This document shows, piece after piece, positions 11,685 through 63,702 of a stretch of DNA of 64,000 bases (its first letter is position 1; every line of letters starts with the position of its first letter). Both the position numbers and the translations under genes were made by a program. The DNA comes from Chloroflexota bacterium (lineage in GTDB: Bacteria; Chloroflexota; JAJPGV01), in NCBI GenBank assembly GCA_021325635.1, contig JAJPGV010000034.1:310745-374744 (forward strand), given 5' to 3'. The notes beneath the pieces are model-generated. The model had not been told where the DNA came from and made no database searches. It saw only the letters and a program-made list of their open reading frames with translations.

Positions 11685-11698
11685 ACTGAAGCTTCAGC

Positions 11699-13048: not shown

Positions 13049-13104
13049 CACTCGGGCGGAAAGGTGGTTTGGCGCGGCTCGCCGCGGTTGAGCAGCGCCT
13101 CGTC

Positions 13105-16075: not shown

Positions 16076-16080
16076 TCGTC

Positions 16081-16599: not shown

Positions 16600-16675
16600 G
16601 GACCAAGCCTACTGAACGGAAGCCCCAGATGCCTTGGGACGAATGTCCGAAGCGACGAAAGTACGGCCGATCGAG

Positions 16676-16975: not shown

Positions 16976-17016
16976 GTGCACGCTCTTCTTCCAATAATAG
17001 GCGCCGGCTGGTCGAG

Positions 17017-17448: not shown

Positions 17449-17449
17449 C

Positions 17450-18694
17450 TTACGCCTCCTGCACGCTGCCCGGGCGCAGTCGCGGTGCCGTTTCCGGCGT
17501 CTGCAGGACCAACCCGAGCTGCACGAAGCACATTGCCAGCAACGTCAGAACGCCCCAGACATGCGTTCCGCTCACGTCTCGCATCCAGCCGATGACTGCC
17601 GGTCCCCCAAGGACCCCGCTGTAGCCAACGGCCATCATCAGTCCCGAGAAGGCGCCAACCTCGTCCGGCGGGGCTACGTCGACCGGGATCACCAGGCTCA
17701 CAGTGAACAGCGCAGACAGCGAGACCCCCATGATGAACGGCCACAACCAGTACACCTGCTCGGGCACGAACAGCAGCCCCAGCACTCCGACGATCGACAG
17801 CAGAGCGCTCACGAGTAGCAGCGGCCGCCGTCCCCAGCGGTCCGAAGCCATTGGCCCCCCACTCCCGCCAATCACGGACCCCGCAGTCAGGGCTCCGAGG
17901 GTCGAGGCCGCCTGCCCAAGGGACCAGCCGAAGCTCTGATAGTAATTCACCAGCCAGGCGTTGAGAATGTAGAACATCACTGTCTGGGTGAAGAACACGC
18001 CACTCACGATCCACGCCAGCCGGTTACGAAAGATGCGGCCAAACGGCCTCAGGCTTTCCTTCTCGCGGTGCCGCTGCCCAGGGACGAACAACCAAGCCAG
18101 AGCGGTAGCCCAGACCACGGCCGACCACAGCAGGAACGGGCCGCGCCAGGTGAGCGCTCCGAAAGCTGGCAGCAGCACGGGCACCGTCAGCGTCGTGGCC
18201 GCCAACGCGCCCACGACGAAGCCGTTGGAATAGACGCCCGTCATCGTTCCGGTCCGCTGGGCGAACCAGTCCTTTACCAATCGCGGCAGCACCGGCTGAA
18301 CCAGCCCTATTCCGATGCCGGCCAGCGCGGTGAACACGAACATGGCCGGGACGTTGGTCGTGGTGGCTCGCAGTCCGCCGCCCGCTCCGAGGATGGCCAG
18401 GCTCAGCAGCAGCACCCATTTCACTCCCAGCCTGGCGATGATCAGTCCGCTGGGAATCGCAAACAGGCCCATCATGACCACCGGGATGGAGAACAGCAGC
18501 CCGGACTCGGCGTAACTCATCCCCAGGTCTTTCTGGATGAGCGGCAGCACCGGTCCCAGGGTCAGCGTATTGGTCCGCGCCGAGAAGGCGCACAGCCAGG
18601 CCAGCGCCAGGATCACCACCGGCAGCGCTCCGCCGGCCCGCCTCGCCGGTCTCATCAACGCGGGCGCAGACACTGGGCGTAAGTGTAGGGGCAT
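17450..18694 (-). CDS. MFS transporter of the CynX/NimT type
   Basis: A 414-residue twelve-helix major facilitator. The start of the fold (LTLGPVLPLIQKDLGMSYAESG) and the motif-A-like loop SGLIIARLGVKWVL resemble cyanate, nitroimidazole and organic anion transporters of the CynX/NimT group. The second half carries a matching loop (ASDRWGRRPLLL). The cargo is unknown. The first ATG (18694) lies in the middle of a perfect palindrome shared with the divergent bchI-like gene; an ATG at 18655 is a possible alternative start. Confidence 0.85.
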   Translation of the reverse strand: MPLHLRPVSAPALMRPARRAGGALPVVILALAWLCAFSARTNTLTLGPVLPLIQKDLGMSYAESGLLFSIPVVMMGLFAIPSGLIIARLGVKWVLLLSLAILGAGGGLRATTTNVPAMFVFTALAGIGIGLVQPVLPRLVKDWFAQRTGTMTGVYSNGFVVGALAATTLTVPVLLPAFGALTWRGPFLLWSAVVWATALAWLFVPGQRHREKESLRPFGRIFRNRLAWIVSGVFFTQTVMFYILNAWLVNYYQSFGWSLGQAASTLGALTAGSVIGGSGGPMASDRWGRRPLLLVSALLSIVGVLGLLFVPEQVYWLWPFIMGVSLSALFTVSLVIPVDVAPPDEVGAFSGLMMAVGYSGVLGGPAVIGWMRDVSGTHVWGVLTLLAMCFVQLGLVLQTPETAPRLRPGSVQEA

Positions 18695-38940: not shown

Positions 38941-39705
38941 TCAGGCAGGCGGATCCGGCCGTGCGAAGATGCTTTTGCCGCCGCACACGTACAGCGTCTG
39001 GCCGGTGACGTAGGCGGCCTCGTCGGAGGCAAAGAAGAGCGTTGCCCAGGCGATGTCCTCGGGCTTGCCGAAGCTGCCCGTCGGCTGAGCCTTGAGCAAG
39101 CGCTCGACGACCTCGGGCGGGTTTTCCTTGTACGTCAGCTGCGTCTCGATCTGCCCCGGCGCGACGCAGTTGGCGGTGATGCCGCGACCGCCGAGCTCGA
39201 TGGCCAGGGTCCGCGTCAGGCTGACCACGCCCCCTTTGGAGGCGGCGTAATTGGTCTGCCCGTACCAGCCCAGCCAGGCGCGCGAGGCAATGTTGACGAT
39301 GCGGCCGTAGCGCTGCTCGCGCATCACCCTGGCGGCCGCCTGCGAGCACAGGAACACACCCTTGAGGTTCACGTTCAGGACGGCATCCCAGTCGGCCTCG
39401 GTGAGGCGCTGCAGGGCGGCGTTGCGGCCAATGCCGGCGTTGTTCACCAGGACGTCCAGCCGGCCGTACGTATCGACCGCCTGGCGCACCATGCGCTCGG
39501 CCTGCTCCGGCTGGGCTACGCTGCCCGATACCGCCAGCGCCTTCCCGCCAGCACGGACGATGTCCTCACTCACCCGGCAAGCCGACTCCGCAGCTACGTC
39601 GTTGACCACGACGGCGGCCCCATGCTCGGCCAGCGTTCGCGCAATGCATTCGCCGATGCCGCTGCCGGCGCCGGTGACAGCGGCAACCCGACCTTCGATA
39701 CCCAC
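38941..39705 (-). CDS. Short-chain dehydrogenase/reductase, catalytic-looking member of a pair
   Basis: A 254-residue classical SDR. The cofactor motif TGAGSGIG (11-18), NNAG (88-91) and the catalytic Tyr153-Lys157 (YAASK) are all present. It oxidises or reduces a hydroxyl/keto group, probably on an acyl-CoA given its neighbours. The GTG at 39705 follows AGGCGG by four bases and lies eight bases after the preceding stop. The preceding gene is a close paralogue (both share SRAWLG and ITGQTLYVCGGKS) that has lost its catalytic residues, so the pair may form a mixed oligomer. Confidence 0.87.
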   Translation of the reverse strand: MGIEGRVAAVTGAGSGIGECIARTLAEHGAAVVVNDVAAESACRVSEDIVRAGGKALAVSGSVAQPEQAERMVRQAVDTYGRLDVLVNNAGIGRNAALQRLTEADWDAVLNVNLKGVFLCSQAAARVMREQRYGRIVNIASRAWLGWYGQTNYAASKGGVVSLTRTLAIELGGRGITANCVAPGQIETQLTYKENPPEVVERLLKAQPTGSFGKPEDIAWATLFFASDEAAYVTGQTLYVCGGKSIFARPDPPA

Positions 39706-39713
39706 GCGGCCGC

Positions 39714-40472
39714 CTATGCCGTCAGCGACGACAAGGCGCTCTTGCCGCCGCATACGTACAACGTCTGGCCGGTGATGTAGCGCGACTCATCCGCCGCGAA
39801 GAACAGCACCGCCTGGCCAACTTCTTCAGGCGCGCCCGGCCTGCGCACGGGCTGCAGCCGTAGCAGGTCCTCGACTTCGTCCGGCGGCAAACGCCGCAGA
39901 TCCTCTGTGTCGACGACGCCGGGCGCCACGCAGTTGACGGTGATGCCGTCCCGCACCAGCTCCCAGGCCAGGACGCGCGTCAGCCCGACGAGCCCGGCCT
40001 CGGCCGCCGCGAAAGCGGCGCCTGTCTCTCCTCCCAACCACGCCCTGCTGGACAGGTGCACGATACGCCCATAGCCGGCCGGCTGCATCACGCGCGCCGC
40101 GGCTCGAGACAGCTGCAGCGGTCCCAGCAAGTTCGCTTCGACGATGCGCTCGACGTCAGCGCTCTCCGTGCGCGCCAACGGCCGCCCGCAGTGCCGCTCC
40201 CAGGCGCTCACGGCGATATCGATTCGCCCAAAGGCATCGAGGGCCGTCTGCATCAGCTCCTCGGTGCCGGCAGCATCGCCGGGGACCATCCTCACGGCCG
40301 GCGCATTGGCTCGATCGCGGCTGCGAAGCTCATCACTCAGTGAACGCAGGCGGGACGGCTCCTCTCCGCCCACGACAACCTCCGCACCTGCCTGTGCCAG
40401 GCATCGCGCGATGGCCTCGCTCACGACGCCGCCCACTCCGCCAATGACGGCCACCCGACCTGCCACGCTCAC
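39714..40472 (-). CDS. Catalytically degenerate SDR paralogue
   Basis: A 252-residue protein with an SDR fold but broken motifs. The cofactor loop reads GGVGGVVS in place of T-G-x-x-x-G-x-G, the NNAG motif is missing (VSAWERH), and the active-site Tyr and Lys are Phe154 and Glu158. The C-terminal half, including ITGQTLYVCGGKSAL, is still very close to the active neighbour encoded eight bases downstream. The open frame and domain layout are intact, so it is likely an inactive partner subunit, as BbsC is to BbsD in anaerobic toluene breakdown (analogy, inference). Confidence 0.82.
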   Translation of the reverse strand: MSVAGRVAVIGGVGGVVSEAIARCLAQAGAEVVVGGEEPSRLRSLSDELRSRDRANAPAVRMVPGDAAGTEELMQTALDAFGRIDIAVSAWERHCGRPLARTESADVERIVEANLLGPLQLSRAAARVMQPAGYGRIVHLSSRAWLGGETGAAFAAAEAGLVGLTRVLAWELVRDGITVNCVAPGVVDTEDLRRLPPDEVEDLLRLQPVRRPGAPEEVGQAVLFFAADESRYITGQTLYVCGGKSALSSLTA

Positions 40473-50098: not shown

Positions 50099-51337
50099 AT
50101 GGAGCGGATGGACTTTGAGCTGACCACCGAGCAGCGGCACATCCGAGACGTGGCGCGGGCATTTGCCCAGGACGAGGTCGCGCCGGTTGCGCGACTCATG
50201 GACGAGGAGGGGGTGATTCCCGACCGGATCATCCGCCGCATGGCCGAGCTGGGCTTCCTGGGTGGGACAGTGCCCGTCGAATACGGAGGCTCCGGCCTCT
50301 CTCCGCTCGAAATGGCGCTGGTGTACGAGGAGCTGGGGCGGGCCTGCTCCTCGGTGCGGGGCTTCCTGGCCGTGCACCTGGGCCTGCACTCCATGGCCAT
50401 CGCCGGCTGGGGCAGTGAGGAACAGAAGCGCACGTACCTCCCCAAGCTGGCCCGCGCAGAGCTGCGCGGCTGCTATGCCCTCACCGAGCCGAACGCGGGC
50501 TCGGACGTCAGCAGCATGGAGGCGACCGCCCGGCGCGAGGGCGACAGCTACGTCCTGAACGGCGTCAAGCACTGGATCTCGAATGCCCTGCACGCCGACC
50601 TGGCGGTGGTGTTCGCCACCATCGATCGCGAGCTGAAGCACAAGGGCATTACCGCCTTCCTGGTGCCCACTTCCACCCCCGGCCTGCGGCGCCAGCCTAT
50701 GCCTGGCCGCCAGCTGGGGCACTGCGCCTCCGATCACGTGCGCATGACCTTCGAGGACTGCCGCGTCCCGCTGGGAAACCGGCTGGGCGCCGAGGGCGAC
50801 GGATTCAAGGTGGCCATGAGCGCGCTGGACCACGGCCGCCTGGGCGTGGCAGCCGGGGCCGTGGGGGTGGGGCAGGCCTGTGTAGACGAGTGTCTGACGT
50901 TTGCCCGGCAGAGGGTCCAGTTCGGCAAGCCCATCGGGGAGTTCGAGATGATCCAGCAGGCCATTGCCGACATGGCCACGGAAGTCGAAGCGGCCCGGCT
51001 GCTGGTCTACCGAGCGGCAGCCGGGCGGGCCCGCGGACAGCGCAATACGGCCGAGGTATCCATGGCCAAGCTGTTCGCCAGCGAGGTAGCGGCGCGCGCG
51101 GCCAACCAGGCCGTCCTCCTCCACGGCAGCTATGGCTACAGCAACGAGAGTCCCGTAGAACGCTACCTGCGCGACATCAAGGGCTATCAGATCTACGAGG
51201 GCACGTCACACATCCAGCGCATCGTCATCGCCCGCGCGGCCCTGAAAGGCGAGCTGCACCCAGCGCAGCCGGGGCAGCCACCCGCGCCCGAACCGGCTAC
51301 CGTCGCTGCCGCTGCCGGCTCACGGAATCACGACTGA
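50099..51337 (+). CDS. Acyl-CoA dehydrogenase
   Basis: A 412-residue FAD-dependent acyl-CoA dehydrogenase. It has the FAD-binding CYALTEPNAGSD motif, the W-I-S/T region (KHWISNALHA), RVQFGKPIGEF, and the catalytic Glu in IYEGTSHIQR. The ATG at 50099 (MERMDFELTTEQ) is the normal family start; the frame stays open upstream without likeness. It is the only plus-strand gene in the aromatic block and its end overlaps the end of had by 18 bases. It may serve the later beta-oxidation of ring-opened products such as 3-hydroxypimeloyl-CoA, or feed cyclohexane-type acids into the pathway (inference). Confidence 0.88.
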   Translation: MERMDFELTTEQRHIRDVARAFAQDEVAPVARLMDEEGVIPDRIIRRMAELGFLGGTVPVEYGGSGLSPLEMALVYEELGRACSSVRGFLAVHLGLHSMAIAGWGSEEQKRTYLPKLARAELRGCYALTEPNAGSDVSSMEATARREGDSYVLNGVKHWISNALHADLAVVFATIDRELKHKGITAFLVPTSTPGLRRQPMPGRQLGHCASDHVRMTFEDCRVPLGNRLGAEGDGFKVAMSALDHGRLGVAAGAVGVGQACVDECLTFARQRVQFGKPIGEFEMIQQAIADMATEVEAARLLVYRAAAGRARGQRNTAEVSMAKLFASEVAARAANQAVLLHGSYGYSNESPVERYLRDIKGYQIYEGTSHIQRIVIARAALKGELHPAQPGQPPAPEPATVAAAAGSRNHD

Positions 51338-52336
51338 GCGCAGCCCCTCGCCGCGGCGCAGCGCATCGAGACCGGCGTTGATGTCCCCCAGCGGATACTG
51401 GCCCGTCACCAGCAGGCGCAGCCGGCCCTCTCGAACCATGTCGATGACTCGGCGGTAGCCGTCGGGCGGACAGCCGAGCGTGCCAATGACCATCAGCTCG
51501 CGGTACATGATGCGCGAAGCGTTGAGCGCCAGGTCCTTGTCGCTGTAGCCGAGCAGGATCAACCGTCCGCCCGTACGCACGGAGCCGAACGCCTGGAGCT
51601 GCGCAGCCTGGTTGCCGATGGCCTCGATGGCCACGTCCACACCGCCGTCGGTCAGCTTGCGAATGGTGCGGGGATAGTCGGGATCGGTTCGCGCATTGAT
51701 CGTGCTGGCCGCGCCGCAGGTGCGCGCCCATTCCAGCCGCTCGTCGGACAAGTCGACGCCAATCACGTGCGCGCCCATCGCGGCCGCGATCTGCACGGCG
51801 TTGATGCCCACCCCACCACAACCCACCACCAGCACGATCTCTCCGGGCTGCACCCGAGCACGGTCGACGACCGCGTGGTACGGGGTCGTGAGCGCATCGG
51901 CGATGACACAGCCTTCGACGAGCGGGATCTCCGGCGGCAGCTTGAAGCACTGATCGGCCGGCGCCTTGACGTACTCGGCAAAGGCGCCGTCCACGTCGTT
52001 CCCGGGCATGCGGCTGTGGACGCAGATGTTGTGGCGTCCGCTCCAGCAGTAGCGGCAGGCGCCGCACCACAGCAGTGCGGGCATGAGCGCAGGATCGCCC
52101 TCAGCCAGGTTGGTCACCCCGGAGCCCACTTTGGCCACCACGCCTGCTGCTTCGTGACCCAGGATCAGCGGTGGCTTGTGGAACGTGGGAACCCCGTGGT
52201 CCAGGTAGTGCAGGTCGCTATGACACAGGCCGCAGGCGCTCACCTTCAGCAGCAGCTCGCCGGGACCTACTTCAGGAACGGGGACGTCTTCGAGTCGCAG
52301 CGGCTCCCCTGAGCCGTAGAACACTGCCGCTCGCAT
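51320..52336 (-). CDS. had: 6-hydroxycyclohex-1-ene-1-carbonyl-CoA dehydrogenase (probable)
   Basis: A 338-residue zinc-dependent alcohol dehydrogenase. Catalytic zinc ligands are the Cys of ACGLCHSD and the His of LGHEAAG; the structural zinc has four Cys (CGACRYC plus the later Cys of HNIC); NAD binds at VGCGGVG. Family alone would only say alcohol dehydrogenase; the pathway role comes from position directly behind oah and dch in a benzoyl-CoA reductase operon, as in Thauera and Azoarcus. It would oxidise the hydroxyl made by Dch to a ketone before ring opening. The gap to oah is three bases. Confidence 0.8.
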   Translation of the reverse strand: MRAAVFYGSGEPLRLEDVPVPEVGPGELLLKVSACGLCHSDLHYLDHGVPTFHKPPLILGHEAAGVVAKVGSGVTNLAEGDPALMPALLWCGACRYCWSGRHNICVHSRMPGNDVDGAFAEYVKAPADQCFKLPPEIPLVEGCVIADALTTPYHAVVDRARVQPGEIVLVVGCGGVGINAVQIAAAMGAHVIGVDLSDERLEWARTCGAASTINARTDPDYPRTIRKLTDGGVDVAIEAIGNQAAQLQAFGSVRTGGRLILLGYSDKDLALNASRIMYRELMVIGTLGCPPDGYRRVIDMVREGRLRLLVTGQYPLGDINAGLDALRRGEGLRSVVIP

Positions 52337-52339
52337 GGA

Positions 52340-53341
52340 CTAGGCCTTGTGGCCGTTGGCGGCCACCACCGCCCCCGCCGGCACGGGCGCGAGCTCGGCG
52401 CCGCACACACCGCAATAGCGGAACTCCTCGGGAATGCCGCGCGCTCCGCACGTGGCGCAGTCCTGGGTGTAAGGGCCGAACAGGAACTCCGACGATCCTC
52501 CCATGGCTGCCTTGCGGCGCAGGCCGATACGGTCAGGCTGGCGCTTCTCGATGAAGGCCCGCATGCCCTCGTACGGCTCGAGGCTGGCGAAGTGCAGCGC
52601 CAGCCAGTCTCGCGCATGACCGATGGTGCTGGACCAGGACAGATCCTTCCAGAAGTTGGTCTGCTGCTTGGTGTAGCGCAGGCACTCCGGGAACTTGTCG
52701 ATGAGCTTGGCGGCGAGCTTGTCCACCGCGTCATCCAGCTGCTCGTAAGGCACCACCTGGTTCACCAGGCCCCACTGCAGGGCCGTGGGGGCGTCCACCC
52801 ACTCGCACAGGTAGAGCATCTCGCGAGCGCGCCGCTCGCCGATGACGATCGGCAGCCACTGCGTGGCCCCGCCGCAGGCAACGCTGCCAACCTGAGTGCC
52901 GACCTGCCGGATGCGCACGTGATCGGCGGCGATGGCCAGGTCACAAGCCAGGTTGAATTCGTTGCCTCCGCCGACGACCATGCCGTTCAGCCGCGCAATC
53001 GTCGGCTTGCCGATATTCCTCAGCGCGTCGATACACGTCTGGAACCCGCCAATCCACTTCCAGTAGTCGCGCGGGCGCCTGGTGTACTCATCGGCGTACT
53101 CGCGCACGTCGCCGCCGGTGCAGAAGGCGTCCTTGCCGGCGCCGGTGAGCACTACCACCGCCACGCTGTCGTCCCACGAAGCGTCGGTGAACGCCTCGGT
53201 CAGCTCCCTGGCGGTGATGGCGCCACAGCAGTTGTAGACCTGGGGGCGATTGAAGGTGATGCGCGCCACCCAGTCCTTCTTCTCGTACAGGATCTGCTGG
53301 AACTTGAAGTCCGCCGCGTCCTTTGGCTCGAAATGGCCCAT
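52340..53341 (-). CDS. oah: 6-oxocyclohex-1-ene-1-carbonyl-CoA hydrolase with C-terminal zinc ribbon
   Basis: A 333-residue crotonase-fold enzyme. The segments GGGNEFNLACDLAIAADH, VGTQVGSVACGGATQWLP, and RYTKQQTNFWKD with TIGHARDWLALH are the specific hallmarks of Oah, the enzyme that adds water and opens the ring to 3-hydroxypimeloyl-CoA. After residue 285 it has an extra tail with Cys295-x2-Cys298 and Cys310-x2-Cys313, a rubredoxin-like zinc ribbon not expected in standard Oah. The ATG at 53341 follows AAGGAG by eight bases. It lies between dch and had. Confidence 0.88.
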   Translation of the reverse strand: MGHFEPKDAADFKFQQILYEKKDWVARITFNRPQVYNCCGAITARELTEAFTDASWDDSVAVVVLTGAGKDAFCTGGDVREYADEYTRRPRDYWKWIGGFQTCIDALRNIGKPTIARLNGMVVGGGNEFNLACDLAIAADHVRIRQVGTQVGSVACGGATQWLPIVIGERRAREMLYLCEWVDAPTALQWGLVNQVVPYEQLDDAVDKLAAKLIDKFPECLRYTKQQTNFWKDLSWSSTIGHARDWLALHFASLEPYEGMRAFIEKRQPDRIGLRRKAAMGGSSEFLFGPYTQDCATCGARGIPEEFRYCGVCGAELAPVPAGAVVAANGHKA

Positions 53342-53370
53342 CGAACTTGCTCCTTGCTCCAAATGTCTCG

Positions 53371-54150
53371 CTATCGATGCAGCCACACCGGCCGGCGCTT
53401 CTCGAGGAACGCCTTGAGGCCTTCCTGGGCGTCGGGCGACGGGATGATCTCCCGCAGCTGCATCTCTTCCAGCCGCTCCAGCGCGGTCCGGACCGGAAGA
53501 TCCATGGACTCCGTGACCGCCCGCCGCGCACGCCGCAGGGCCGCGCCGCTGAGCTGGCGAAAGCGGTTCAACACCCGCTCCATGGCCCCATCCAGCTCGC
53601 TCGCCGGCACCGCCTGGCTGGCCAGACCGAGCCGCTGGGCCTCGACGCCGGACACCGACTCCCCCTGCAGGATGAGCTCCAGCGCCCGGTGCGGGCCCAT
53701 CAGCCTGGGGAGCAGCACCGCTGCCGCCGGCGGGAGCACGCCCAGCGAAATCTCGGGCACACCAATACTGGCGTCCCCGGCCATGATCACGACGTCGGAC
53801 GCCACCACCAGCTCGCAGCCGCCACCCAACGCGTAGCCATGGACGCCCGTAACCACCGGCACCGGGCACTGCAGCAGCCGCAGGATGAGCGCATGGAAGG
53901 CATCGAGCAGCGGGCGCAGCGTCTCGCCCTGGTGTTCGCCGATGTCGGCTCCCACGCAGAAGGTCTTGCCTGCGCCGCGCAGCGCGACAGCTCGCAAGCT
54001 CGGCGCCACGGTGACTTCGTCCAGAGCCGCCGACAGCTGCTCCATCATGGCAATGCTCAGGACGTTCAGGGGCGGCCGGTCCAACGTGAGGTAGGCGACG
54101 TCTTCGCGGATCTCCGACCGTATCAGCGGCGCAGCCGGTGCGACAGCCAT
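53371..54150 (-). CDS. dch: Cyclohexa-1,5-diene-1-carbonyl-CoA hydratase
   Basis: A 259-residue crotonase-fold hydratase. The run FCVGADIGEH with HGYALGGGCELVVASD and IGVPEISLGVLPPAAAVLLP is characteristic of Dch, which hydrates the dienoyl-CoA made by benzoyl-CoA reductase. It follows the reductase activator gene by 12 bases and precedes oah, the typical order of the pathway. Length agrees with known members. Confidence 0.88.
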   Translation of the reverse strand: MAVAPAAPLIRSEIREDVAYLTLDRPPLNVLSIAMMEQLSAALDEVTVAPSLRAVALRGAGKTFCVGADIGEHQGETLRPLLDAFHALILRLLQCPVPVVTGVHGYALGGGCELVVASDVVIMAGDASIGVPEISLGVLPPAAAVLLPRLMGPHRALELILQGESVSGVEAQRLGLASQAVPASELDGAMERVLNRFRQLSGAALRRARRAVTESMDLPVRTALERLEEMQLREIIPSPDAQEGLKAFLEKRRPVWLHR

Positions 54151-54162
54151 AACCAGCCTCCG

Positions 54163-54987
54163 CTATGCCGCGGCGACCGCCGCCGTTTGCTCGGCGGGGA
54201 GCAAGCCCAGCTTCCGCAGCCGCACCAGACCCAGCAGCGCAGCCCCCAGCGCGCAGGCCAGATCCGAGTCTTCGCTGGAGTTAACAGGGCCGTCAAGCGC
54301 CTCGCTGAGCGCCCGCACCATGCCCGCCTGTTTCGAGGCTCCGCCGACGATCGTGAACTCCGGCTCCATCCCGGCGCGCTTCAACAGCGCCATGGCCCGC
54401 CCGGCCAGGGAGTTGTGCACGCCGCGCAGGATGTCTTCGACCCGCAGCCCGTCGGTGACGTGGTTGATGATCTCCGATTCGGCCAGCACGGCGCATATGC
54501 TGCTGATGGTCACCGGCTTGTCACCGCCCATCGAGAGCGGGCCAACGTCATCGATCGTGATCTCCAGGTACTTGGCCGCGCGCTCCACGAAGCTGCCGGC
54601 TCCGGCGGCGCACTTGTCGTTACTGCGAAACTGCTTGACCCGGCCCTCGGCATCCACGTGAATGGCGCGCGTGTTCTGCGCGCCGATGTCGATGATCGAG
54701 CGCGTGCCGGGGAACAGGTACACGGCCCCCCGGCCAGCCGAGGTGATCTCGGTCACCTGCAGGTCGCGGGCCGCGACGTTGTAGCGGCCGAAGCCGGTCG
54801 TGGCCAGGTAGCTCACGTCCCCGCGGGCCGCTCCAGCCTGGGCCAGCGCCGGGGCCAGCACCTCCTCGGTGATAGCCTCGAAGTCGGGCCGCGTGCGCAG
54901 CCGGGCTCGACCCAGCAGCTTCTGCCGCTCGTCCAGCAGCACGGCCTTGGTAGTCCGAGATCCGATGTCTACTCCAGCGACGATCAT
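54163..54987 (-). CDS. bcrD: Benzoyl-CoA reductase activator/ATPase subunit (BcrD-like)
   Basis: A 274-residue ASKHA-fold ATPase of the BadF/BadG/BcrA/BcrD family. It has the phosphate loop GVDIGSRTTKA, the IDIGAQNTRAI strand often seen in BcrD/BadG, and the two Cys that hold the [4Fe-4S] cluster between two subunits (NDKCAAGAGSF and SSICAVLAESE). It couples ATP hydrolysis to electron transfer onto the benzoyl-CoA ring. With the neighbouring bcrA-like product it would form the activase dimer. The A/D naming follows gene order and motifs and could be reversed. Confidence 0.87.
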   Translation of the reverse strand: MIVAGVDIGSRTTKAVLLDERQKLLGRARLRTRPDFEAITEEVLAPALAQAGAARGDVSYLATTGFGRYNVAARDLQVTEITSAGRGAVYLFPGTRSIIDIGAQNTRAIHVDAEGRVKQFRSNDKCAAGAGSFVERAAKYLEITIDDVGPLSMGGDKPVTISSICAVLAESEIINHVTDGLRVEDILRGVHNSLAGRAMALLKRAGMEPEFTIVGGASKQAGMVRALSEALDGPVNSSEDSDLACALGAALLGLVRLRKLGLLPAEQTAAVAAA

Positions 54988-55011
54988 GGTTTTCCTCCTG
55001 CCTGGCTTTGA

Positions 55012-55812
55012 CTACGCCGCCCAGCCGATGCCGCTCTGGGCGCGCTCCAGCGCGAACAGCGCGGCCCCGATGGCGCCCATGTAGTGGGCGTCATCGCTCA
55101 CGTTCAAGGGGCAGCCGAGCTTCTCTTCGAGCGCCCGCACGATGCCGATGTTGCGGGACACGCCTCCGGTAAACGTGACCTCCTGCTCCAAGCCGACACG
55201 ATGCATGAGCGATACGGTCCGCGTGGCGATGGCCGCGTGGACACCGCCGAGAATGTCCTCCACCCGCTTGCCCTGCGCCAGGTAGGACAGGATGTCGGAC
55301 TCCACGAACACCGTGCACACCGTGCTGAGCCGGACAGGATGGCGCGCCTGCAGGCTGAGCTCTCCGATTTCGCCCAGCGTCAACCCCAGGGCCTCGGCCG
55401 AATTGGCCAGGAACCGCCCGGTGCCGGCGGCGCACTTGTCGTTCATGGAGAAATCGCGCACTTCACCGCCCTCACCGACCTGGATAGCCTTGGCGTCCTG
55501 GCCGCCGATGTCGACCACGGTGCGGGTATTGGGGAAGGCGTAGCACGCGCCCTTGGCGTGGCAGCTGATCTCGGTCACCTGCGTATCGCCGAAGGTGACC
55601 TTGTAGCGCCCGTAGCCTGTGCCAACCACCGATCCCACGTCGCTGCGGCTGATGCCCGCTGCCTCCACCAGGTTATCGAAGGTGCGCTCCGCCGCGCGAG
55701 AAACGTTGGCGCCGGTATCGATCAGGCTACGAGCCACGATCTCGCGGCGCTCATTGATCAGCGCGCCCTTGGTCTGGGTGGACCCGACGTCGACTCCGAC
55801 TCCGTACAACAT
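55012..55812 (-). CDS. bcrA: Benzoyl-CoA reductase activator/ATPase subunit (BcrA-like)
   Basis: A 266-residue ASKHA ATPase with [11 protein letters not shown], the [11 protein letters not shown] strand, and the cluster Cys in [11 protein letters not shown] and [11 protein letters not shown]. It is short: the BcrA of Thauera is markedly longer, so both activators here have the compact form, like those of the Bzd type in Azoarcus. It lies between bcrB and bcrD with gaps of 15 and 24 bases. Confidence 0.87.
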
Positions 55813-55827
55813 TGCTTTCCCTCCACG

Positions 55828-57090
55828 TCACACGTGCGTGAGCTTGCGATGCTCGATGCCTTCGAAGAAGGCGTCAATGCGGTTCTGGAGCTGCGCCTGC
55901 GAGTAGTAGCGCGGATCCTCCAGGTCCGACTCGATCAGCAGAGTGGGCCAGCCCTTCTCACGAGCGAAGTACTCGCGCATGTCGCCCTGGCCGGCCGAGA
56001 AGAGGCGGCAGCTCTTGACCGAGTGGATGACGATCCCGTCCGCGCCCCATTCTTCGACGTAGCGGCCGATCTGCTCGTAGCGCTGCAGGAAGTTGCGGTT
56101 GCACACGTTCTCCTTGAGCATGTGCTGGGCGATGCTCTCCAGCGGGTGAGCGGGGTCATGCTTGAAGCCAAATTCCCACAAGCCACCGACCGTCGAATAG
56201 GTGGAGGCCACCGCCACGGCGCCCCAGCGCGAGAACAGCTCGCGGAAGTTGCGCAGGTAGGGCCACGGTGGAGGGCCTTCGATGACGTAGCGGATCTTCT
56301 CCTCCGGCAGCGGGCCCTGGCCCAGCTTGGCCTTCTCGTGCAGCTGCTTGTACACCAGCTCGAAGAAGCGCAGGCACTCCTCGGTGCCGCGCAGGGCATA
56401 CAGCGGCGCCATGAAGTTGACCGCGTCGAAGTAGGCGTCGAAGGGAGCCGGCCGCTGCTTGGTGAGCTGCTTGATGGCGCACCACAGCTCGCCCACCTGC
56501 GACGAGAGCTCGACCGTGCGCTGCAGCCTGGCGTACTCGAACTTCTTGCCCGTCACCTTCTCGAACAGCTCGATGAGCTGCTCCAGCTGCTTGACCACAT
56601 AGGTCACGTCTTCGGCGCGAGGCTCACCGTCGGGCGTCCGAACGAACGGCACGTCGATGTTGAAGGCGGGGGCGTTGGTGTATTCCGCCAGGTGCTCGAA
56701 CCAGTGCAGGTACACGCTGCAGCCAACGTAGTTGCACAACACCACGGCCGGCACCGGAATGGTGGCAAAGCCCGCTTCGCGTCCGGACATGAACAGGCCG
56801 ATGTCGGCCTTGACGTAGGCGCAGTTATCGGTCGAGTAGCCCATCTCCTCGGCCTTCTGGATGTAGGGCAGCGACTTCTTCTTGACCGCCAGCTGCAGGT
56901 CGTTTACTTCGGGAAAGACCGGCAGCAGGTCGAACGCTCGGACCAGCTCGACCGGGTTACCGGCGATCAGCAGGTGCACGGCCCGCGGGGTGCTGCTCTT
57001 GGCGACCTGAGTCATCTCTTCGTAGTAGCGAGCCATCAGGTCGCGAGCCACGTCGTGGAAGCTCGCTTCGAAGGTTGCGGTTGCGCTCAT
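55828..57090 (-). CDS. bcrB: Benzoyl-CoA reductase subunit B
   Basis: A 420-residue subunit of the 2-hydroxyacyl-CoA dehydratase/benzoyl-CoA reductase fold. Markers are IAGNPVELVRAFDLLPVFPE near the start, AVVLCNYVGCSVYLHWFE and IHSVKSCRLFSAGQGDM, whose Cys are candidate ligands of the active-site iron-sulfur cluster. With subunit C it binds the substrate and takes electrons from the activator pair to reduce the ring. It follows bcrC by 37 bases. Confidence 0.9.
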   Translation of the reverse strand: MSATATFEASFHDVARDLMARYYEEMTQVAKSSTPRAVHLLIAGNPVELVRAFDLLPVFPEVNDLQLAVKKKSLPYIQKAEEMGYSTDNCAYVKADIGLFMSGREAGFATIPVPAVVLCNYVGCSVYLHWFEHLAEYTNAPAFNIDVPFVRTPDGEPRAEDVTYVVKQLEQLIELFEKVTGKKFEYARLQRTVELSSQVGELWCAIKQLTKQRPAPFDAYFDAVNFMAPLYALRGTEECLRFFELVYKQLHEKAKLGQGPLPEEKIRYVIEGPPPWPYLRNFRELFSRWGAVAVASTYSTVGGLWEFGFKHDPAHPLESIAQHMLKENVCNRNFLQRYEQIGRYVEEWGADGIVIHSVKSCRLFSAGQGDMREYFAREKGWPTLLIESDLEDPRYYSQAQLQNRIDAFFEGIEHRKLTHV

Positions 57091-57127
57091 CGTCTTCTCT
57101 CCTCAAGATCCGGCGGCGCCGGCTCGA

Positions 57128-58291
57128 TTAGCTGAACAACATCGATTCAACGAAGGTCTCCACTTCGGACTGCACTCGGTCGTACAGCCACATCTTTTCC
57201 TCGAATTCCAGGAACAGGTGCGGGATGTCGTGCTCTTCCAGCGCCCGGCGGTAGAGGGCATAGTCGAACAGCGCCGGCTCGCAGAACTTGGCTCCCAGGA
57301 AAATGACCGCGTCGGCGTGCAGATCGCGCACCTTGTCGAGCAGGCCGGCGGCGCGCGGTTTGCGCAGGTCATGCTTGACGCTGGCGTGCACGCTGTGATT
57401 GAGATAGCTCTCGGCCAACGCCCGGAGCGGCGGCCCGCCCGCGCTGGCGACGTCGTCCGTCAGGAAGCGCGTGCCGAGCTGAAAATCGTCGTCCAGGATG
57501 TAGCAGCCGGCACGCTCCAGGCTGTCGATCAGATCCAACGGCGGCTGCTCGCAGAATGCGCCAATGAGCACCACCCGGACGCGGTCCTGGGTCTTTGCTT
57601 CCAGCGCTCGGGCGCCGGCCAGCGCCCCTTCCAACAGCGGCACCGACTCTTCGGGCGGCAGCAGACAGCTGCAGCGTGTGAGCACGTAGGAATCGACCGC
57701 CGACAGCCGCTCCGGGGACGCGGCACGGAGCGCGTAGAGCTCCCGCAGCAAGGCACGCACGCGGTCGTACAGCTCGATGCTGGCCGCCAGCTGAGCGTCG
57801 CTCACCTGGTGTCCGGACCATTGGCCAAAGACGCCCACCAGGCGCTGGTACTCACCCTCCAGGTACGCCAGGGCGGACGGCGAGCCAGGGTTTTGCGGGA
57901 AATGAATGAACTCCACGGGCTTGTCGGGGAAATTGCGTTTGAATACGCTCGCCAGGTTGCGCGCCGGGTCGCATATCGAATGGAAGACCATGCCGTCGAA
58001 GCAATCGAGCTTATCGGTGAGGCCCAGCTCCAGCGTGCTCTTGACGATCGAGCACACGAACGACTGGAAGCGCGAGTCGGCGTGCGCCAGCTCGATCTGG
58101 TTGCCCCCACCGAACAGCGCCACCGGCAGCATACCGCTGGCGTGGACGAGCTCCACGGGGGTGTATACCGGGAAGTAGCCAACCGCCGCGCGGCCGGTCT
58201 TCTCCTTGTAGGTGCGAACCGTCGGGAAGGCCCGATCCTCGATGACCTCCCGATAGGCCTCCGCTCGTGATTCAGTCATGACCGTTGCCAC
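57128..58291 (-). CDS. bcrC: Benzoyl-CoA reductase subunit C
   Basis: A 387-residue partner of BcrB. The pattern GYFPVYTPVELVHASGMLPV is typical of BcrC/BzdN; candidate cluster Cys lie in FHSICDPARN, IGAFCEQPP and GAKFCEPALF. The GTG at 58291 is chosen because GAGGAGGG stands seven bases before it; an ATG 12 bases further in is less well placed. The start lies two bases after the acetyltransferase stop, so translation is coupled. Together with bcrB, bcrA and bcrD it makes a full ATP-dependent (class I) reductase. Confidence 0.9.
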   Translation of the reverse strand: MATVMTESRAEAYREVIEDRAFPTVRTYKEKTGRAAVGYFPVYTPVELVHASGMLPVALFGGGNQIELAHADSRFQSFVCSIVKSTLELGLTDKLDCFDGMVFHSICDPARNLASVFKRNFPDKPVEFIHFPQNPGSPSALAYLEGEYQRLVGVFGQWSGHQVSDAQLAASIELYDRVRALLRELYALRAASPERLSAVDSYVLTRCSCLLPPEESVPLLEGALAGARALEAKTQDRVRVVLIGAFCEQPPLDLIDSLERAGCYILDDDFQLGTRFLTDDVASAGGPPLRALAESYLNHSVHASVKHDLRKPRAAGLLDKVRDLHADAVIFLGAKFCEPALFDYALYRRALEEHDIPHLFLEFEEKMWLYDRVQSEVETFVESMLFS

Positions 58292-58293
58292 GC

Positions 58294-58836
58294 TCAAACC
58301 CTCCTCTCCATGCTCAACAGGGCTGATTGCCGAAATCCAAGGCTGCGAAAAAAGCGGCGCAGCGGCTGGTCGTGCAGGTTCACCAATGTGGCCACGCGCG
58401 AGAGTCCCCGACTGCCGCTGTCCTCGACAAATGCTTCGACCAGCAGGCGGGCGAGCCCGCGCCGCTGCCAGGCAGGCAGCACGCCGAGCACCTCGAGCCA
58501 GGCCACGTCGCCGCTCAATCCGAAGTCGTCCCCTCTGACGTGACCCAGCACCTGGCCCACCAGGCGCCCGTCCACCTCGACTCCCCAGCACACCGGCCGG
58601 CCGTATCCCGATACTTCGAGGCGGGCGCGCCACTGCTCAGGATCGGCGCTCCGCCCCAGCTCGGCAGCCAGCCGAGCCACTTCGTCCTCATCATCCACCG
58701 TCAATGGCCGCAGGCGCACGCCATCAGGCAGCGCGGCTGCTTCCATGAGGCTGGCCATGGCCCGTCCAAGCGCCGGCCGGCGCCGCCGTCCATCGAGCAG
58801 CAGGGTTACCTGGCCCTCGACTTCAGCGCTAGGCAT
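58294..58836 (-). CDS. GNAT-family N-acetyltransferase
   Basis: A 180-residue GNAT protein with the acetyl-CoA loop LGVLPAWQRRGLARLLVEAF and later LVNLHDQPLRRFFRSLGF. It overlaps the 3' end of the hydroxyacyl-CoA dehydrogenase gene by eight bases and ends two bases before bcrC, so it is embedded in the aromatic operon. GNAT enzymes acetylate amines or protein lysines. Acyl-CoA ligases for benzoate are switched off by lysine acetylation in Rhodopseudomonas (Pat), so a role in tuning this pathway is possible (inference). Confidence 0.8.
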   Translation of the reverse strand: MPSAEVEGQVTLLLDGRRRRPALGRAMASLMEAAALPDGVRLRPLTVDDEDEVARLAAELGRSADPEQWRARLEVSGYGRPVCWGVEVDGRLVGQVLGHVRGDDFGLSGDVAWLEVLGVLPAWQRRGLARLLVEAFVEDSGSRGLSRVATLVNLHDQPLRRFFRSLGFRQSALLSMERRV

Positions 58837-59701
58837 GAGCCGCCTCGACCTCGTAGAAGCCGCTGCCAGACTTGCGGCCCAGGCGCCCGGCGGCGACCAG
58901 CCGGCGCAGCAGGGGGCTGGGAAGGAAGCGCTCTCCCAGCTCTTCGGACAGCGACTCCAGGATGTGCAGCTCGACGTCCAGGCCGATGAGGTCCGCCAGC
59001 TCCAGCGGCCCCAACGGGTAGTTGTAGGCGAGCTTGACGCCGCGGTCGATGTTCGCGGCGTCGGCCACGCCCTGCTCCAGGCAGCGAATCGCCTCAGCTA
59101 TCAGCGCTTGCCCGACACGCGTGGTCACGAACCCGGGAAAGTCTCGGGCCGTGCACACCTCCTTGTTCAAGGCGCGGCAGAAAGCTTCGGCGCGGGCCAC
59201 GGTCTCGTCAGAGGTCGCCAGCCCGCGAACCACCTCGACCAGCTTCATGGCCGGCACCGGATTGAAGAAATGCGTGCCGATGACTCGCTCCGGGCGCGTG
59301 GTCGCCGCGGCGATGGCGGTAATCGACAGTCCGGAAGTGTTGCTGGCCAGCAGCGCATCGGGCCGGCACACCTGGTCCAGCTGAGTGAAGGTGGCGCGCT
59401 TGATCGCCAGGTCCTCGAACACCGCTTCGACAGCCACGTCGGCGGGCGCCAGCGCGTCCAGGCCCACATGGAACTCGAGCCTGCGCTGCCAGGCTTCGAC
59501 CTGCTCCGCCGTGGCCTTGCCGCGCGCGATCGCACCCTGGCATTGCTTGTCCATCAGGGTGCGGCCGCGATCGAGCGCCGGCTGGTCGAGGTCACAGACG
59601 ACCACGCCGCAGCCGAGCGTACTGGCCGCCTGGTAGGCGATGCCGGAGCCCATCGTCCCAGCTCCGACGACTCCCACCACCCGGTACTCCGATTGGTTCA
59701 T
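58829..59701 (-). CDS. 3-hydroxyacyl-CoA dehydrogenase
   Basis: A 290-residue NAD-dependent dehydrogenase of the PaaH/Hbd group. It has GVVGAGTMGSG at the start, SNTSGLSI, the catalytic-region IGTHFFNPVPAMKLVEVV, and a C-terminal helical domain ending GRKSGSGFYEV. It oxidises 3-hydroxyacyl-CoA; after ring opening, 3-hydroxypimeloyl-CoA would be a natural substrate (inference from position). It is the first gene after a hairpin and a pair of direct repeats, and likely starts the reductase transcript. Confidence 0.88.
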   Translation of the reverse strand: MNQSEYRVVGVVGAGTMGSGIAYQAASTLGCGVVVCDLDQPALDRGRTLMDKQCQGAIARGKATAEQVEAWQRRLEFHVGLDALAPADVAVEAVFEDLAIKRATFTQLDQVCRPDALLASNTSGLSITAIAAATTRPERVIGTHFFNPVPAMKLVEVVRGLATSDETVARAEAFCRALNKEVCTARDFPGFVTTRVGQALIAEAIRCLEQGVADAANIDRGVKLAYNYPLGPLELADLIGLDVELHILESLSEELGERFLPSPLLRRLVAAGRLGRKSGSGFYEVEAAHA

Positions 59702-59744
59702 GAGGCCAGGCTAGACCCGAACTGTGAGCGTAGTGTGTCGTTTG

Positions 59745-59762
59745 TGCGCAAAGCATGCGCAA
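59745..59762. promoter_or_regulatory. Direct TGCGCAA repeats at 11-base spacing
   Basis: Two identical heptamers (59745-59751, 59756-59762) separated by AGCA. An 11-base period is the usual arrangement for OmpR/PhoB-type winged-helix dimers. They lie 44-61 bases before the hydroxyacyl-CoA dehydrogenase start and may be the site of one of the two winged-helix regulators nearby. Confidence 0.45.
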
Positions 59763-59874
59763 GCGTCCTTCGAAATTGGGGCGGGCGCTGTACACACGGT
59801 CCGGACATGGCGCGCTGGGTGGAGCGAGATGCTCAGCCTTCACAACAGGGGAGCTGCGCCGCGTCGAAACGCAG

Positions 59875-59896
59875 GGCCGGTCACAATCGACCGGCC
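59875..59896 (-). terminator. Hairpin inside the aromatic operon
   Basis: Perfect 8-bp stem GGCCGGTC (59875-59882) and GACCGGCC (59889-59896) around six bases. It lies about 135 bases after the enoyl-CoA hydratase stop in the minus direction. With no long T run it may pause or partly stop transcription from the regulators into the bcr genes. Confidence 0.4.
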
Positions 59897-60030
59897 GGGA
59901 GATACCTGCGTGAGCCTTCGGGCCCACGAAACGGGGCGAGCCTGGCGCGCCTTGTCGTCCCCTTGACGCCGTGTTATCGATGGAAACCACCCATGGGGCA
60001 GCGTCGGGACGCGAGGCCGCGCCTACCGGG

Positions 60031-60846
60031 CTACCGTCCCGTCCATACAGGGGGGCGTTTGGCGCAGAAGGCCTCGTAGAACTCGCGGTGGTCCTTGCCC
60101 ATCAGCAGCAGCGCCTGGGCCTCGGCCTCGGTCTCGATGGCGCTGTGAAGATCCATCGCGGACTCGTTGTTGAGGAGGCGCTTGGTCATCCCATAGGCCA
60201 GGCTCGGACCGGCAGCCAGGCGAGTGGCCAGAGCGTCAGCCTCGGTGCACAGCTGGTCGTCGTCCACCACTTTGTACGCCAGGCCGTAGCGATCGGCCGT
60301 GTCGGCGTCAATGGTGTCGCCCAGGAACAGCAGCTCGGTGGCTCGCCCCAGGCCAACGACCTTCGGCAGCAGATAAGCAGCCCCCATGTCGCCGCCGGTG
60401 AGGCCTACCTTCGTGAACAGGAACGCGAAACGAGCCGAGCGGGCCAGGATGCGAAAGTCACTGGCGAGGGCGACCACGGTCCCTGCCCCCGCCGTCATGC
60501 CGTTGATAGCGGCGACGATCGGCTTGTCCAGGATGCGCATCCGCTCCGTCAGCAAGCCCGTCATGCGGGTGAACTCGAGCACGCCCCGCATGTCGCGGTG
60601 CAGCAGCTGACCGATGATGTCGTGCACGTCGCCACCCGAGCAAAAGGCCTTGCCCTGGCCGCTGATGACGACTACGCGCACGTCTTCCGCGCCCTGCAGC
60701 GCGCCCATGAGGTCAGTCAGCTCACGGTAGACCTCAAAGGTGATCGCGTTCAGCCGGTCCGGCCGGTTGAGCGTGATCCACAGCACCCCCTGGTCCTGCG
60801 CGGTCTTGAACGACGTGTACTGGTCCAGCTTCATCAATCTCTCCAT
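60031..60846 (-). CDS. Enoyl-CoA hydratase/isomerase family protein
   Basis: A 271-residue crotonase with NRPDRLNAITFEVY, the oxyanion region KAFCSGGDVHD and AAINGMTAGAGTVVALASD, then LTGGDMGAAYLLPKVVG. The C-terminal FCAKRPPVW is usual for the family. The substrate is unknown; it could act in beta-oxidation of the opened ring. Its ATG overlaps the stop of the regulator-SDR gene by one base (TGATG), so the two are coupled. Confidence 0.86.
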   Translation of the reverse strand: MERLMKLDQYTSFKTAQDQGVLWITLNRPDRLNAITFEVYRELTDLMGALQGAEDVRVVVISGQGKAFCSGGDVHDIIGQLLHRDMRGVLEFTRMTGLLTERMRILDKPIVAAINGMTAGAGTVVALASDFRILARSARFAFLFTKVGLTGGDMGAAYLLPKVVGLGRATELLFLGDTIDADTADRYGLAYKVVDDDQLCTEADALATRLAAGPSLAYGMTKRLLNNESAMDLHSAIETEAEAQALLLMGKDHREFYEAFCAKRPPVWTGR

Positions 60847-62351
60847 CAGCTCATGACGGCTCCGCCGTCGACGTTGATTCCCTGTCCGGTGATACCGCCC
60901 GCACCCTCGCCGGCCAGCATCAGGACGACGCGCGCGACCTCACGCGGCTCGATCAGCCTCCGTTGGGGGCTGAAGCGCGCCAGGCTGTCCAGCGCCTCGT
61001 CGATCGTCCGGCCGGTCTTCTGTGCCAGCCGCTGAGCCGTCGCCTGAGTCATGGCGGTCGCGGCGAATCCAGGACAGACGGCGTTCACGGTGATGCCCTT
61101 GCTCACCACTTCGACGGCCAGTGCCCGAGTGAGCCCGAGCAGGCCGTGTTTGGCGGCGCAGTATCCGCTGGTGTAGGCGTAGCCGATCTTGGCGCCGGTG
61201 GAGGCAATGTTGATGATGCGGCCCCACTGGCGCTCGATCATGTGCGGGAGAACGGCCCGAGCGGCATAGAAAGCCGAGGTCAGGTTGACCGCCAGCAGCT
61301 GGTCCCACAGGTCGTCATCCATCTCGACCAGCGGCAGGCTGGCGGCCATGCCCGCGGCACAGACCAGGATGTCTAAGCCGCCCTGGCGGCCGATGGTACG
61401 CTCCACCGCCGCGCGCACTTGCGCAGGATCGGTCACGTCAGCGACCACCGCTTCCGCGGCGCCTCCGGAACGGCGCACATCCGCCGCCACAGCCTGGACC
61501 TCGGCCTCGGTACGCGCTACCAGCGCCACTTTGGCCCCCGCGGCTGCCAGCGCTCGCGCAATGGCTTCACCTATGCCGCGACCGCCGCCGGTCACTATGG
61601 CGCTGCGCCCGTTCAGCTCCGCCCTGCTTCCCACAACCCGAGACTGCTCGGGCTCGGCCGCCAACCGATACCCCACGCCGCGCACGGTCGCGATGTAGCG
61701 CGGCATGTCGGCGACGTCGCCGAGCTTCTGGCGCAAATCGCGGATGTGGACGTCGACCGATCTATCCAGGGGCAGATCGTCGTCATAGGTATGCACGTGT
61801 GTCAGCAGCTCATCCCGGCTGAACGTCCGCTGGGGCGCCTCGAGGAGCGTCTGCAACAGCCGAAACTCGACCGGAGTCAACTCCAGCGGACGGCCGCCGA
61901 GATGCGCCCGATGCCCTTCGACGTCCAGCTCCAGCTCCTGGTGGCGAAGACGTGCCGCCACGATGAGCTCGGGCACGGACCGCCTCAGCAGCGCCCGGGC
62001 CCGGGCCACGAGCTCAAGCGCGTCGTACGGACAGGTCAGCACGTCGTCCGCGCCGCTAGCCAGGGCCGTCAGCCGAGCTTCGATCGATTGATCCTGGGTA
62101 AGCACCAGCATCGGCCGGCCGGCGGCAGACGCCAGCCGCATGCACTCCTGCCACTCACTCGGTCGGCTGCCCTCCAGCAGGACGAGCAGGAGATCCGGCC
62201 GCTCCTTCTGCACGCGGTCCAGGGCCTGTCGCAGGTCATGGAAGACCGTGACCCACAGGCCCTCGTCCTGCAGCGTTTGCTGAGCATCGCCGGCGCGACC
62301 GCTGAGACACAGCAGCAGCACCGAGGCGCTCGATGGCGGCGCCTCGATCAC
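60846..62351 (-). CDS. Winged-helix regulator with pseudo-receiver fused to a short-chain dehydrogenase
   Basis: A 501-residue fusion. Residues 1-125 look like a receiver but lack the phospho-acceptor: Leu58 stands where Asp should be (LLLVLLEG), the N-terminal acidic pair is missing (LLLCLSG) and the Lys is Cys107. Residues about 137-231 are an OmpR-type winged helix (LELTPVEFRLLQTLL, SVDVHIRDLRQKLG, RGVGYRLA). Residues about 247-500 are a complete classical SDR with TGGGRGIG (254-261), Ser384, Tyr397 and Lys401. The frame is unbroken through both joins. It overlaps the upstream regulator gene by four bases and the hydratase by one. It may bind DNA in response to NAD(H) or an acyl-CoA-derived ligand (inference). 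Confidence 0.9.
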   Translation of the reverse strand: MIEAPPSSASVLLLCLSGRAGDAQQTLQDEGLWVTVFHDLRQALDRVQKERPDLLLVLLEGSRPSEWQECMRLASAAGRPMLVLTQDQSIEARLTALASGADDVLTCPYDALELVARARALLRRSVPELIVAARLRHQELELDVEGHRAHLGGRPLELTPVEFRLLQTLLEAPQRTFSRDELLTHVHTYDDDLPLDRSVDVHIRDLRQKLGDVADMPRYIATVRGVGYRLAAEPEQSRVVGSRAELNGRSAIVTGGGRGIGEAIARALAAAGAKVALVARTEAEVQAVAADVRRSGGAAEAVVADVTDPAQVRAAVERTIGRQGGLDILVCAAGMAASLPLVEMDDDLWDQLLAVNLTSAFYAARAVLPHMIERQWGRIINIASTGAKIGYAYTSGYCAAKHGLLGLTRALAVEVVSKGITVNAVCPGFAATAMTQATAQRLAQKTGRTIDEALDSLARFSPQRRLIEPREVARVVLMLAGEGAGGITGQGINVDGGAVMS

Positions 62352-63448
62352 TCGGCTACCTCGCGCAGCTCCAGCACGAAATAGCCGTCGGAATCCGGCA
62401 GCGCAGCGGCCACTTCTTCGATGGTCAGCTGTCCGTCCGGCATCCCAACGTGCCGGCGAACGGATTGGGGCAGCCTGGTGCTCAACGCCTCGAGACCCGC
62501 GCAGCGCCCGCTCTTGGTTAGTCGGGCATCACACCCCAGCAGCTCCGCACAGGTCTGGGTCGCGGCCACGCCACGAGAGAGCCCGAGCAGGGACTCGGCA
62601 CGCCGGTTGACGATATGGACGGCGCGCTGCCGATCCACGACCAGGCAGGCGGTTGGCAGCACATCGAAGGCGGCCTTCAGCAGTCCCTCGGCTGGCGCAG
62701 CGGGCAGCGCGGCCAGCCGGTAGCCAAAGCCCCGAACGGACTCGATGAGTCTCGGCTGGCGGGGATCGTCTCCCAGCTTGCGCCGCAGCGCCCGAACGTG
62801 AGCGTCGATGGACCGCGACAGCGGCAGCGCTCCCGCTTCCGCGCGAGCTCTCTGCACCAACTGATCGCGCGACACTACGCGGCCCTGCGCTTGCAGCAGC
62901 GCATCGAGCAGCGTGCATTCGGTGCGGGTGACGTTGGCCTCACGCCCATCCAACCGCACGACTCCTTGCGATCTGTCCAAGGTGATGCCCCCATAGCTCA
63001 CCGAGTGTGCGCCGGCCGTCGCAGACCGGCCCAGGAGACGGCGTGCTCGGGCCGCGACCTCCGCGGCCGGAACAGGACCGCATAGGCAGTCCGTGGCGCC
63101 CAGAGCCAGGGCCACTCGTTGAACAGCGGGGTGGTCACCGGCCAGCACCAGAATGGGCACTTCGAACAGCAGCAGCCGGCGATAGACCAGCCAGCCGTCT
63201 TCCGGGCCGAGACGCGGGTTCAACACGATCAAGCCCGGACGGTGGGCATTCAGCAGCTGCTGAGCCTCGTGCTCCGACCGGCCCCACAGGATCTGGAGCC
63301 CTTCCTTAAGGAAAGCCTCCTCCAGCGCCGGCTTGCCCACCTCATCACGATCGACGACCAGCACGGTGCCGTAGCCCGACGAGTAGACCCGGCCTCCCGG
63401 GCGCGCCGGCCACTCGGAGGTACTTGCAGCTCGATCCGGAGAGGCCAT
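62348..63448 (-). CDS. Winged-helix regulator with pseudo-receiver and PAS domain
   Basis: A 366-residue protein: receiver-like region (about 28-138) with Asn77 in place of the acceptor Asp (LIVLNPRL) and Gly124 in place of the Lys; winged helix (about 150-245; ANVTRTECTLLDALL, SIDAHVRALRRKLG, RGFGYRLA); and a C-terminal PAS-like domain (about 256-366; LPTACLVVDRQRAVHIVNRRAESLLG). A PAS domain after the DNA-binding domain is an unusual order. It is the first gene of the aromatic operon on this strand and its stop overlaps the fused regulator (ATGA). The ATG at 63448 is used; a GTG at 63451 is also possible. Confidence 0.85.
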   Translation of the reverse strand: MASPDRAASTSEWPARPGGRVYSSGYGTVLVVDRDEVGKPALEEAFLKEGLQILWGRSEHEAQQLLNAHRPGLIVLNPRLGPEDGWLVYRRLLLFEVPILVLAGDHPAVQRVALALGATDCLCGPVPAAEVAARARRLLGRSATAGAHSVSYGGITLDRSQGVVRLDGREANVTRTECTLLDALLQAQGRVVSRDQLVQRARAEAGALPLSRSIDAHVRALRRKLGDDPRQPRLIESVRGFGYRLAALPAAPAEGLLKAAFDVLPTACLVVDRQRAVHIVNRRAESLLGLSRGVAATQTCAELLGCDARLTKSGRCAGLEALSTRLPQSVRRHVGMPDGQLTIEEVAAALPDSDGYFVLELREVAE

Positions 63449-63702
63449 CACCGCATTTGTTTTTAGAGGCCCCCTGCTAAAGACGGCATAAACGGCCGAT
63501 CAACGGCCCGTAGACGCGAGCGTACCGACGAGGGTATTTTGCGCCGATCGTTCGCTGAATGGACACACCAGGTTCACACAATCCACCTAGGCTAGCCCCG
63601 AAGCTGGCGTCGATAGGCAGGAGGAGAGCATCGATTACTGCACCACCAAGCTCGTGGCTCTCCAAACCATTTCGATTGCTTACTTATGTAAAGGAGGAAG
63701 CA
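63449..63702. promoter_or_regulatory. Divergent control region between the regulators and a binding-protein gene
   Basis: 254 bases between divergent genes. It holds ACGGC three times (63483, 63492, 63503; the first read as GACGGC) and CATAAACGGCCG at 63487-63498, 39 bases before the regulator start. Nearly the same element, CATAAACGACCG, lies at 41585-41596 ahead of the amidohydrolase. On the right, AAAGGAGG (63690-63697) is the ribosome site of the lipoprotein. Confidence 0.45.

Follow-up and report, generated by a model that had tools for sequence, protein, structure and literature searches.

A pseudo-receiver and an OmpR-type winged helix fused to a complete short-chain dehydrogenase in Chloroflexota: a conserved, apparently rare architecture compatible with a trigger enzyme

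In the window analyzed here, the whole 64,000-nucleotide stretch of Chloroflexota DNA, the gene at 60846-62351 on the minus strand was called as a single open reading frame of 501 codons, with a GTG start and no internal stop. The encoded protein of 501 residues combines three domains. Residues 9-125 (61977-62327, minus strand) form a pseudo-receiver, in which the Pfam Response_reg profile matches residues 24-118 with 29.6 bits, slightly below the cut-off of 30.2. Residues 153-230 (61662-61895, minus strand) form the winged helix of the OmpR/PhoB response regulators (Trans_reg_C, PF00486, 86.5 bits). After a linker at residues 232-247 (61611-61658, minus strand), residues 248-501 (60849-61610, minus strand) form a complete classical short-chain dehydrogenase (SDR), matched by adh_short_C2 at 258-497 (200 bits) and adh_short at 251-440 (199 bits). 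The AlphaFold2 model (mean pLDDT 88) contains three well-folded domains, joined before the SDR by an unstructured linker (residues 235-242, pLDDT below 50). An earlier note on this DNA had read the same three domains in one unbroken frame and had proposed structure prediction of the joins; the frame, the profiles and the model agree with that reading.

The fusion gene is the middle member of a three-gene unit on the minus strand. Upstream of it, with an overlap of 4 nt, lies a partner gene (62348-63451) for a second pseudo-receiver (Asp to Asn) followed by a winged helix and a C-terminal PAS domain, the last being weak in the window copy (Pfam). Directly downstream, with an overlap of 1 nt (TGATG), lies the gene for an enoyl-CoA hydratase of the PRK08258 family (60031-60846; 373 bits, cut-off 330), and by these overlaps the three genes look translationally coupled. 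Just upstream of the unit, at 63482-63507 on the minus strand, a triple direct repeat, GCCGTT-N5-GCCGTT-N3-GCCGTC, with steps of 11 and 9 bp, is a candidate operator; it gave one match against 0.02 expected, an expectation to be read in the light of the choice of the pattern after inspection of the sequence. OmpR-type proteins bind direct repeats of such kind. The triple repeat was not seen upstream of the corresponding unit in a second genome, G168, which is described below. An NMT1-type ABC transporter, possibly for the uptake of an aromatic substrate, runs divergently from the unit (locus L062, contig C50 of genome G000, 4304-7168). In the same locus (7840-18000), translations revealed SelA-, SelB- and SelD-like genes beside a molybdopterin formate-dehydrogenase-like operon, which suggests the use of selenocysteine.

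A gap of 329 bp (59702-60030) separates the three-gene unit from a downstream cluster of the benzoyl-CoA pathway (51320-59701, minus strand), recognized by profile searches and gene layout. The cluster encodes a 3-hydroxyacyl-CoA dehydrogenase, a GNAT protein, BcrC-like and BcrB-like proteins, two activase subunits, a dienoyl-CoA hydratase-like protein, a BadI/Oah-like hydrolase and a Had-like zinc dehydrogenase. Most of these proteins score below the NCBIfam equivalog cut-offs, and thus the members are divergent; the reductase, all of whose subunits fall short of these cut-offs, is of a divergent Bcr type, and the called reading frames at 57128-58633 and 52340-53869 reach too far at their 5' ends. 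The cluster is a possible target of the fusion regulator. Since it has its own zinc-type Had-like dehydrogenase, the core pathway does not obviously require the fused SDR.

The earlier note had seen the danger to the fusion in a missed stop or an assembly join near residue 240, or in homologues that are always split into two genes. In the genome G168, from another family of the same phylum, a single frame (L057, 8520-9989) carries the same fusion. The two proteins are 64% identical in a single tblastn piece over residues 6-489, the comparison stopping there because the G168 contig ends inside the SDR; contig C167 of G168 was rejected as the continuation of the operon, as the missing end of the SDR does not lie at its start. 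Conservation is highest in the winged helix (72% identity), and the SDR (67%) and the receiver (62%) are also well above the linker (25%), which in G168 is two residues longer and has no stop. In each of the three domains, most nucleotide changes fall at third codon positions, which shows that all are under purifying selection. In the window, there is no N, and GC3 is even across the joins (0.84, 0.83, 0.81 and 0.82). Because a second genome carries it in one frame, the fusion is not an assembly error, nor is it the product of a missed stop. The window linker does hold an in-frame GTG at codon 240, which could in principle start a separate SDR; however, there is no evident ribosome-binding site before it, and in G168 no ATG, GTG or TTG occurs between codon 225, which lies inside the winged helix, and codon 275, so that the linker there has no start codon. 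It is thus very improbable that the fused product is an artefact of any of these kinds, including an SDR made separately from an internal start.

The fusion is known from these two members, which come from distantly related Chloroflexota. With the regulator half as query, which would miss fusions with a very different regulator half, no third fusion was found among about 400 genomes sampled from part of the phylum. No further fusion was found in 29 genomes of the class of G168 (the class as listed without the window's genome), in 177 of the class of genome G338, or in 110 of the class of genome G016. Plasmids gave no match covering 80%, viral contigs gave none, and a pattern scan of the genome contigs for the fusion gave unfused matches only. 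As judged from these limited sequence searches, the fusion is rare, although absence elsewhere is not proven. A literature search for regulator-SDR fusions, or for an SDR on an OmpR-type regulator, gave nothing relevant; the view that no standard family has this domain order therefore stands, neither a family nor a paper with it having been found.

In an ungapped alignment with phospho-competent receivers, the column of the phospho-accepting Asp is occupied by Leu58 in the window protein and by Gln in G168, with a Glu two residues later in both. Glu60 as a phosphomimic of the Asp was ruled out by the same alignment. The acidic pair is replaced by Cys15-Leu16 and the Lys by Cys107 (Arg in G168), and Thr85 is kept (Val in G168). 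The domain falls short of the set of phospho-accepting Asp, acidic pair, Thr/Ser and Lys of the OmpR/PhoB receivers, and it corresponds to a pseudo-receiver (atypical response regulator) as defined in PMC12632262, that is, a receiver fold without the key phosphotransfer residues. Judging from these residues, the receiver cannot be phosphorylated conventionally, as had been proposed from the window alone. The PAS-bearing partner is conserved upstream of the fusion in G168 (L057, 7427-8527; 49% identity), and its receiver has an Asn at the Asp position in both genomes. Thus, neither protein is likely to respond to a histidine kinase as typical response regulators do, and the two appear to be phosphorylation-independent regulators co-translated as a conserved pair. 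Because the fusion lacks the phosphotransfer residues and the partner lacks the Asp, another input would be needed. In G168, the PAS regulator is preceded (L057, 7280-7410) by repeats built on TGAGTCCTGAGTGAGG, which resemble a palindromic repeat element. G168 also has a paralogous unfused pair (L058, 1229-3033), a 364-residue receiver/winged-helix protein and a 266-residue regulator; the latter stops soon after the winged helix and represents the unfused state. This pair is followed by a CRP/FNR-like gene.

The SDR domain has the TGxxxGIG motif (TGGGRGIG, residues 254-261), the Asn356-Ser384-Tyr397-Lys401 tetrad and the Rossmann fold of the classical SDRs, and both motif and tetrad are intact in the two fusions. 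The loop and the Ser, Tyr and Lys were found at the residues given in the earlier note; Asn356 is additional. The NNAG motif reads CAAG in the window protein. Foldseek comparison with solved SDRs gave target-normalized TM scores of 0.91-0.96, the nearest structures being a Thermus SDR (9fe6), 3-hydroxybutyrate dehydrogenases and polyketide ketoreductases. Furthermore, the domain is full length, as its start aligns with residue 1 of an unfused relative. The fused SDR is thus complete and apparently an active dehydrogenase. NAD(H) had been suggested as its cofactor and signal. However, the stretch around Arg280, which follows beta-2 and is also Arg in G168, aligns with the Arg pair of an NADPH-bound T. 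cruzi enzyme; this conserved Arg suggests NADP(H), not NAD(H), as the cofactor.

The nearest SDR relatives with an annotated context stand alone, with no regulator, on plasmids of Azospirillum thermophilum and Sinorhizobium meliloti (L079 and L080). The gene order there is salicylyl-CoA 5-hydroxylase/oxidoreductase, SDR, enoyl-CoA hydratase, acyl-CoA dehydrogenase, thioesterase and RidA; identity to the proteins of the window is 46-48% for the SDRs and 47-48% for the hydratases, and the two genes stand in the same order. In G016, from the window's phylum, genes for an SDR, an acyl-CoA dehydrogenase, RidA, a hydratase and a hydroxylase lie within about 10 kb. In contrast, a salicylyl-CoA type hydroxylase or monooxygenase was not found in the window's genome, and a match in G168 was not counted, as it covers the C-terminal oxidoreductase half only. 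Since the SDR-hydratase pair matches clusters of the 2-aminobenzoyl-CoA/salicylyl-CoA type, the fused SDR and the next gene seem to be a known catabolic pair with a regulator joined in front. Two tandem stand-alone SDR genes in the window itself (38944-40472) are 32-36% identical to the fused SDR. The earlier idea of an acyl-CoA of the benzoyl-CoA pathway as signal holds as far as the aromatic acyl-CoA context is concerned. However, because the nearest unfused SDRs of annotated context sit outside bcr clusters and no HGD-D/bcr genes were detected in G168 (weak evidence, the genome being 74% complete), a signal specific to benzoyl-CoA cannot be taken as general. Likewise, the fusion itself is conserved, but its bcr neighbourhood is seen in the window's genome only.

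PutA is a trigger enzyme, with the roles of enzyme and regulator in one protein, and the fusion would be alike in bringing both roles into one chain. We know of no trigger enzyme in which an SDR and an OmpR-type winged helix are combined, and none was found in the literature search. Pseudo-receiver regulators of the JadR1/ChxR type end after the winged helix, whereas in the fusion a complete enzyme follows it. Like JadR1 and ChxR, which are pseudo-receiver OmpR/PhoB regulators (PMC12632262), the fusion has lost the phosphorylation residues, has an OmpR-type winged helix and would have its activity set otherwise. JadR1 and RedZ are pseudo-receivers regulated by ligands, and the way in which bacterial pseudo-receivers switch has been called a mystery (PMC12632262). 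BzdR of Azoarcus sp. CIB, which controls anaerobic benzoate genes, consists of an XRE helix-turn-helix and a shikimate-kinase-like domain without activity; for its evolution, a catalytically intact intermediate between enzyme and regulator was proposed and built synthetically in the laboratory (PMC3602430). BzdR and the fusion both have an N-terminal DNA-binding domain, a linker and a C-terminal enzyme-derived domain. However, the Pfam domains of the fusion are Trans_reg_C and adh_short, so that it is not BzdR-like in composition, having a pseudo-receiver, an OmpR-type winged helix and an SDR with intact catalytic residues in place of the XRE and inactive shikimate-kinase-like domains.

The best-supported explanation of the architecture, to which we give about an even chance, is a trigger enzyme in which a pseudo-receiver and winged helix have been joined to the intact SDR of the adjacent SDR-hydratase gene pair, and in which the SDR oligomer and its occupancy by ligand and NADP(H) set DNA binding. 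SDRs are normally oligomers. Through the SDR oligomer, the winged helices would be kept in dimers or tetramers, in place of phosphorylation-driven dimerization. Binding of NADP(H) to the SDR, together with an acyl-CoA from the degradation of aromatic rings (hydroxy/oxo alicyclic or beta-hydroxy/oxo), would then alter the placement of the winged helices on DNA. The protein would probably control its own three-gene unit (via the repeats at 63482-63507), the transporter that diverges from this unit and/or the benzoyl-CoA cluster, and the co-translated PAS-bearing partner may act together with the fusion protein. The architecture is compatible with the trigger-enzyme class, of which catalysis and regulated DNA binding are the presumed part; we infer dehydrogenase activity, oligomerization, ligand sensing and DNA targets alike.

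Against a trigger enzyme, the linker is flexible and poorly conserved (25%, with low AlphaFold2 confidence), and allosteric coupling is not evident from the sequence; moreover, the fusion has two members only, and the repeat chosen as candidate operator was not seen at the G168 unit. The main alternative, less probable but of real weight, is that neighbouring genes of an operon were fused and the protein is bifunctional by linkage only, the regulator and the enzyme working independently and the SDR giving constitutive dimerization or a fixed stoichiometry. Such a linker, and a set of catalytic residues as complete as that of a functional enzyme, would be expected in that case; loss of a stop codon would suffice, since SDR and hydratase genes adjoin in related catabolic clusters, and the unfused pair of G168 indicates that such regulators occur without an SDR. 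However, the fusion has been retained across divergence to 64% identity, although one stop could split it, and the regulator would be left with no other obvious input after the loss of its phosphorylation residues. Alternatively, the SDR could be a sensor only, which binds cofactor or ligand without catalysis as the shikimate-kinase-like domain of BzdR does; the Had-like dehydrogenase of the benzoyl-CoA cluster may make SDR activity dispensable, and the CAAG in place of NNAG in the window protein points the same way. We consider this rather improbable, as the catalytic Asn, Ser, Tyr and Lys and the glycine motif are kept in both members.

If the fusion is a trigger enzyme, a catalytically active SDR might directly sense redox state and substrate for an OmpR-type transcription factor, in place of phosphorylation, and the protein might be a still-active natural counterpart of the proposed BzdR intermediate; we put this forward tentatively. 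The fusion is a conserved natural case in which one chain unites an intact enzyme with a receiver dead to phosphorylation, and thus both the switching of pseudo-receivers and the evolution of enzymes into regulators become testable on one purified protein. Furthermore, the fusion protein could be used to detect aromatic acyl-CoA intermediates, as a sensor.
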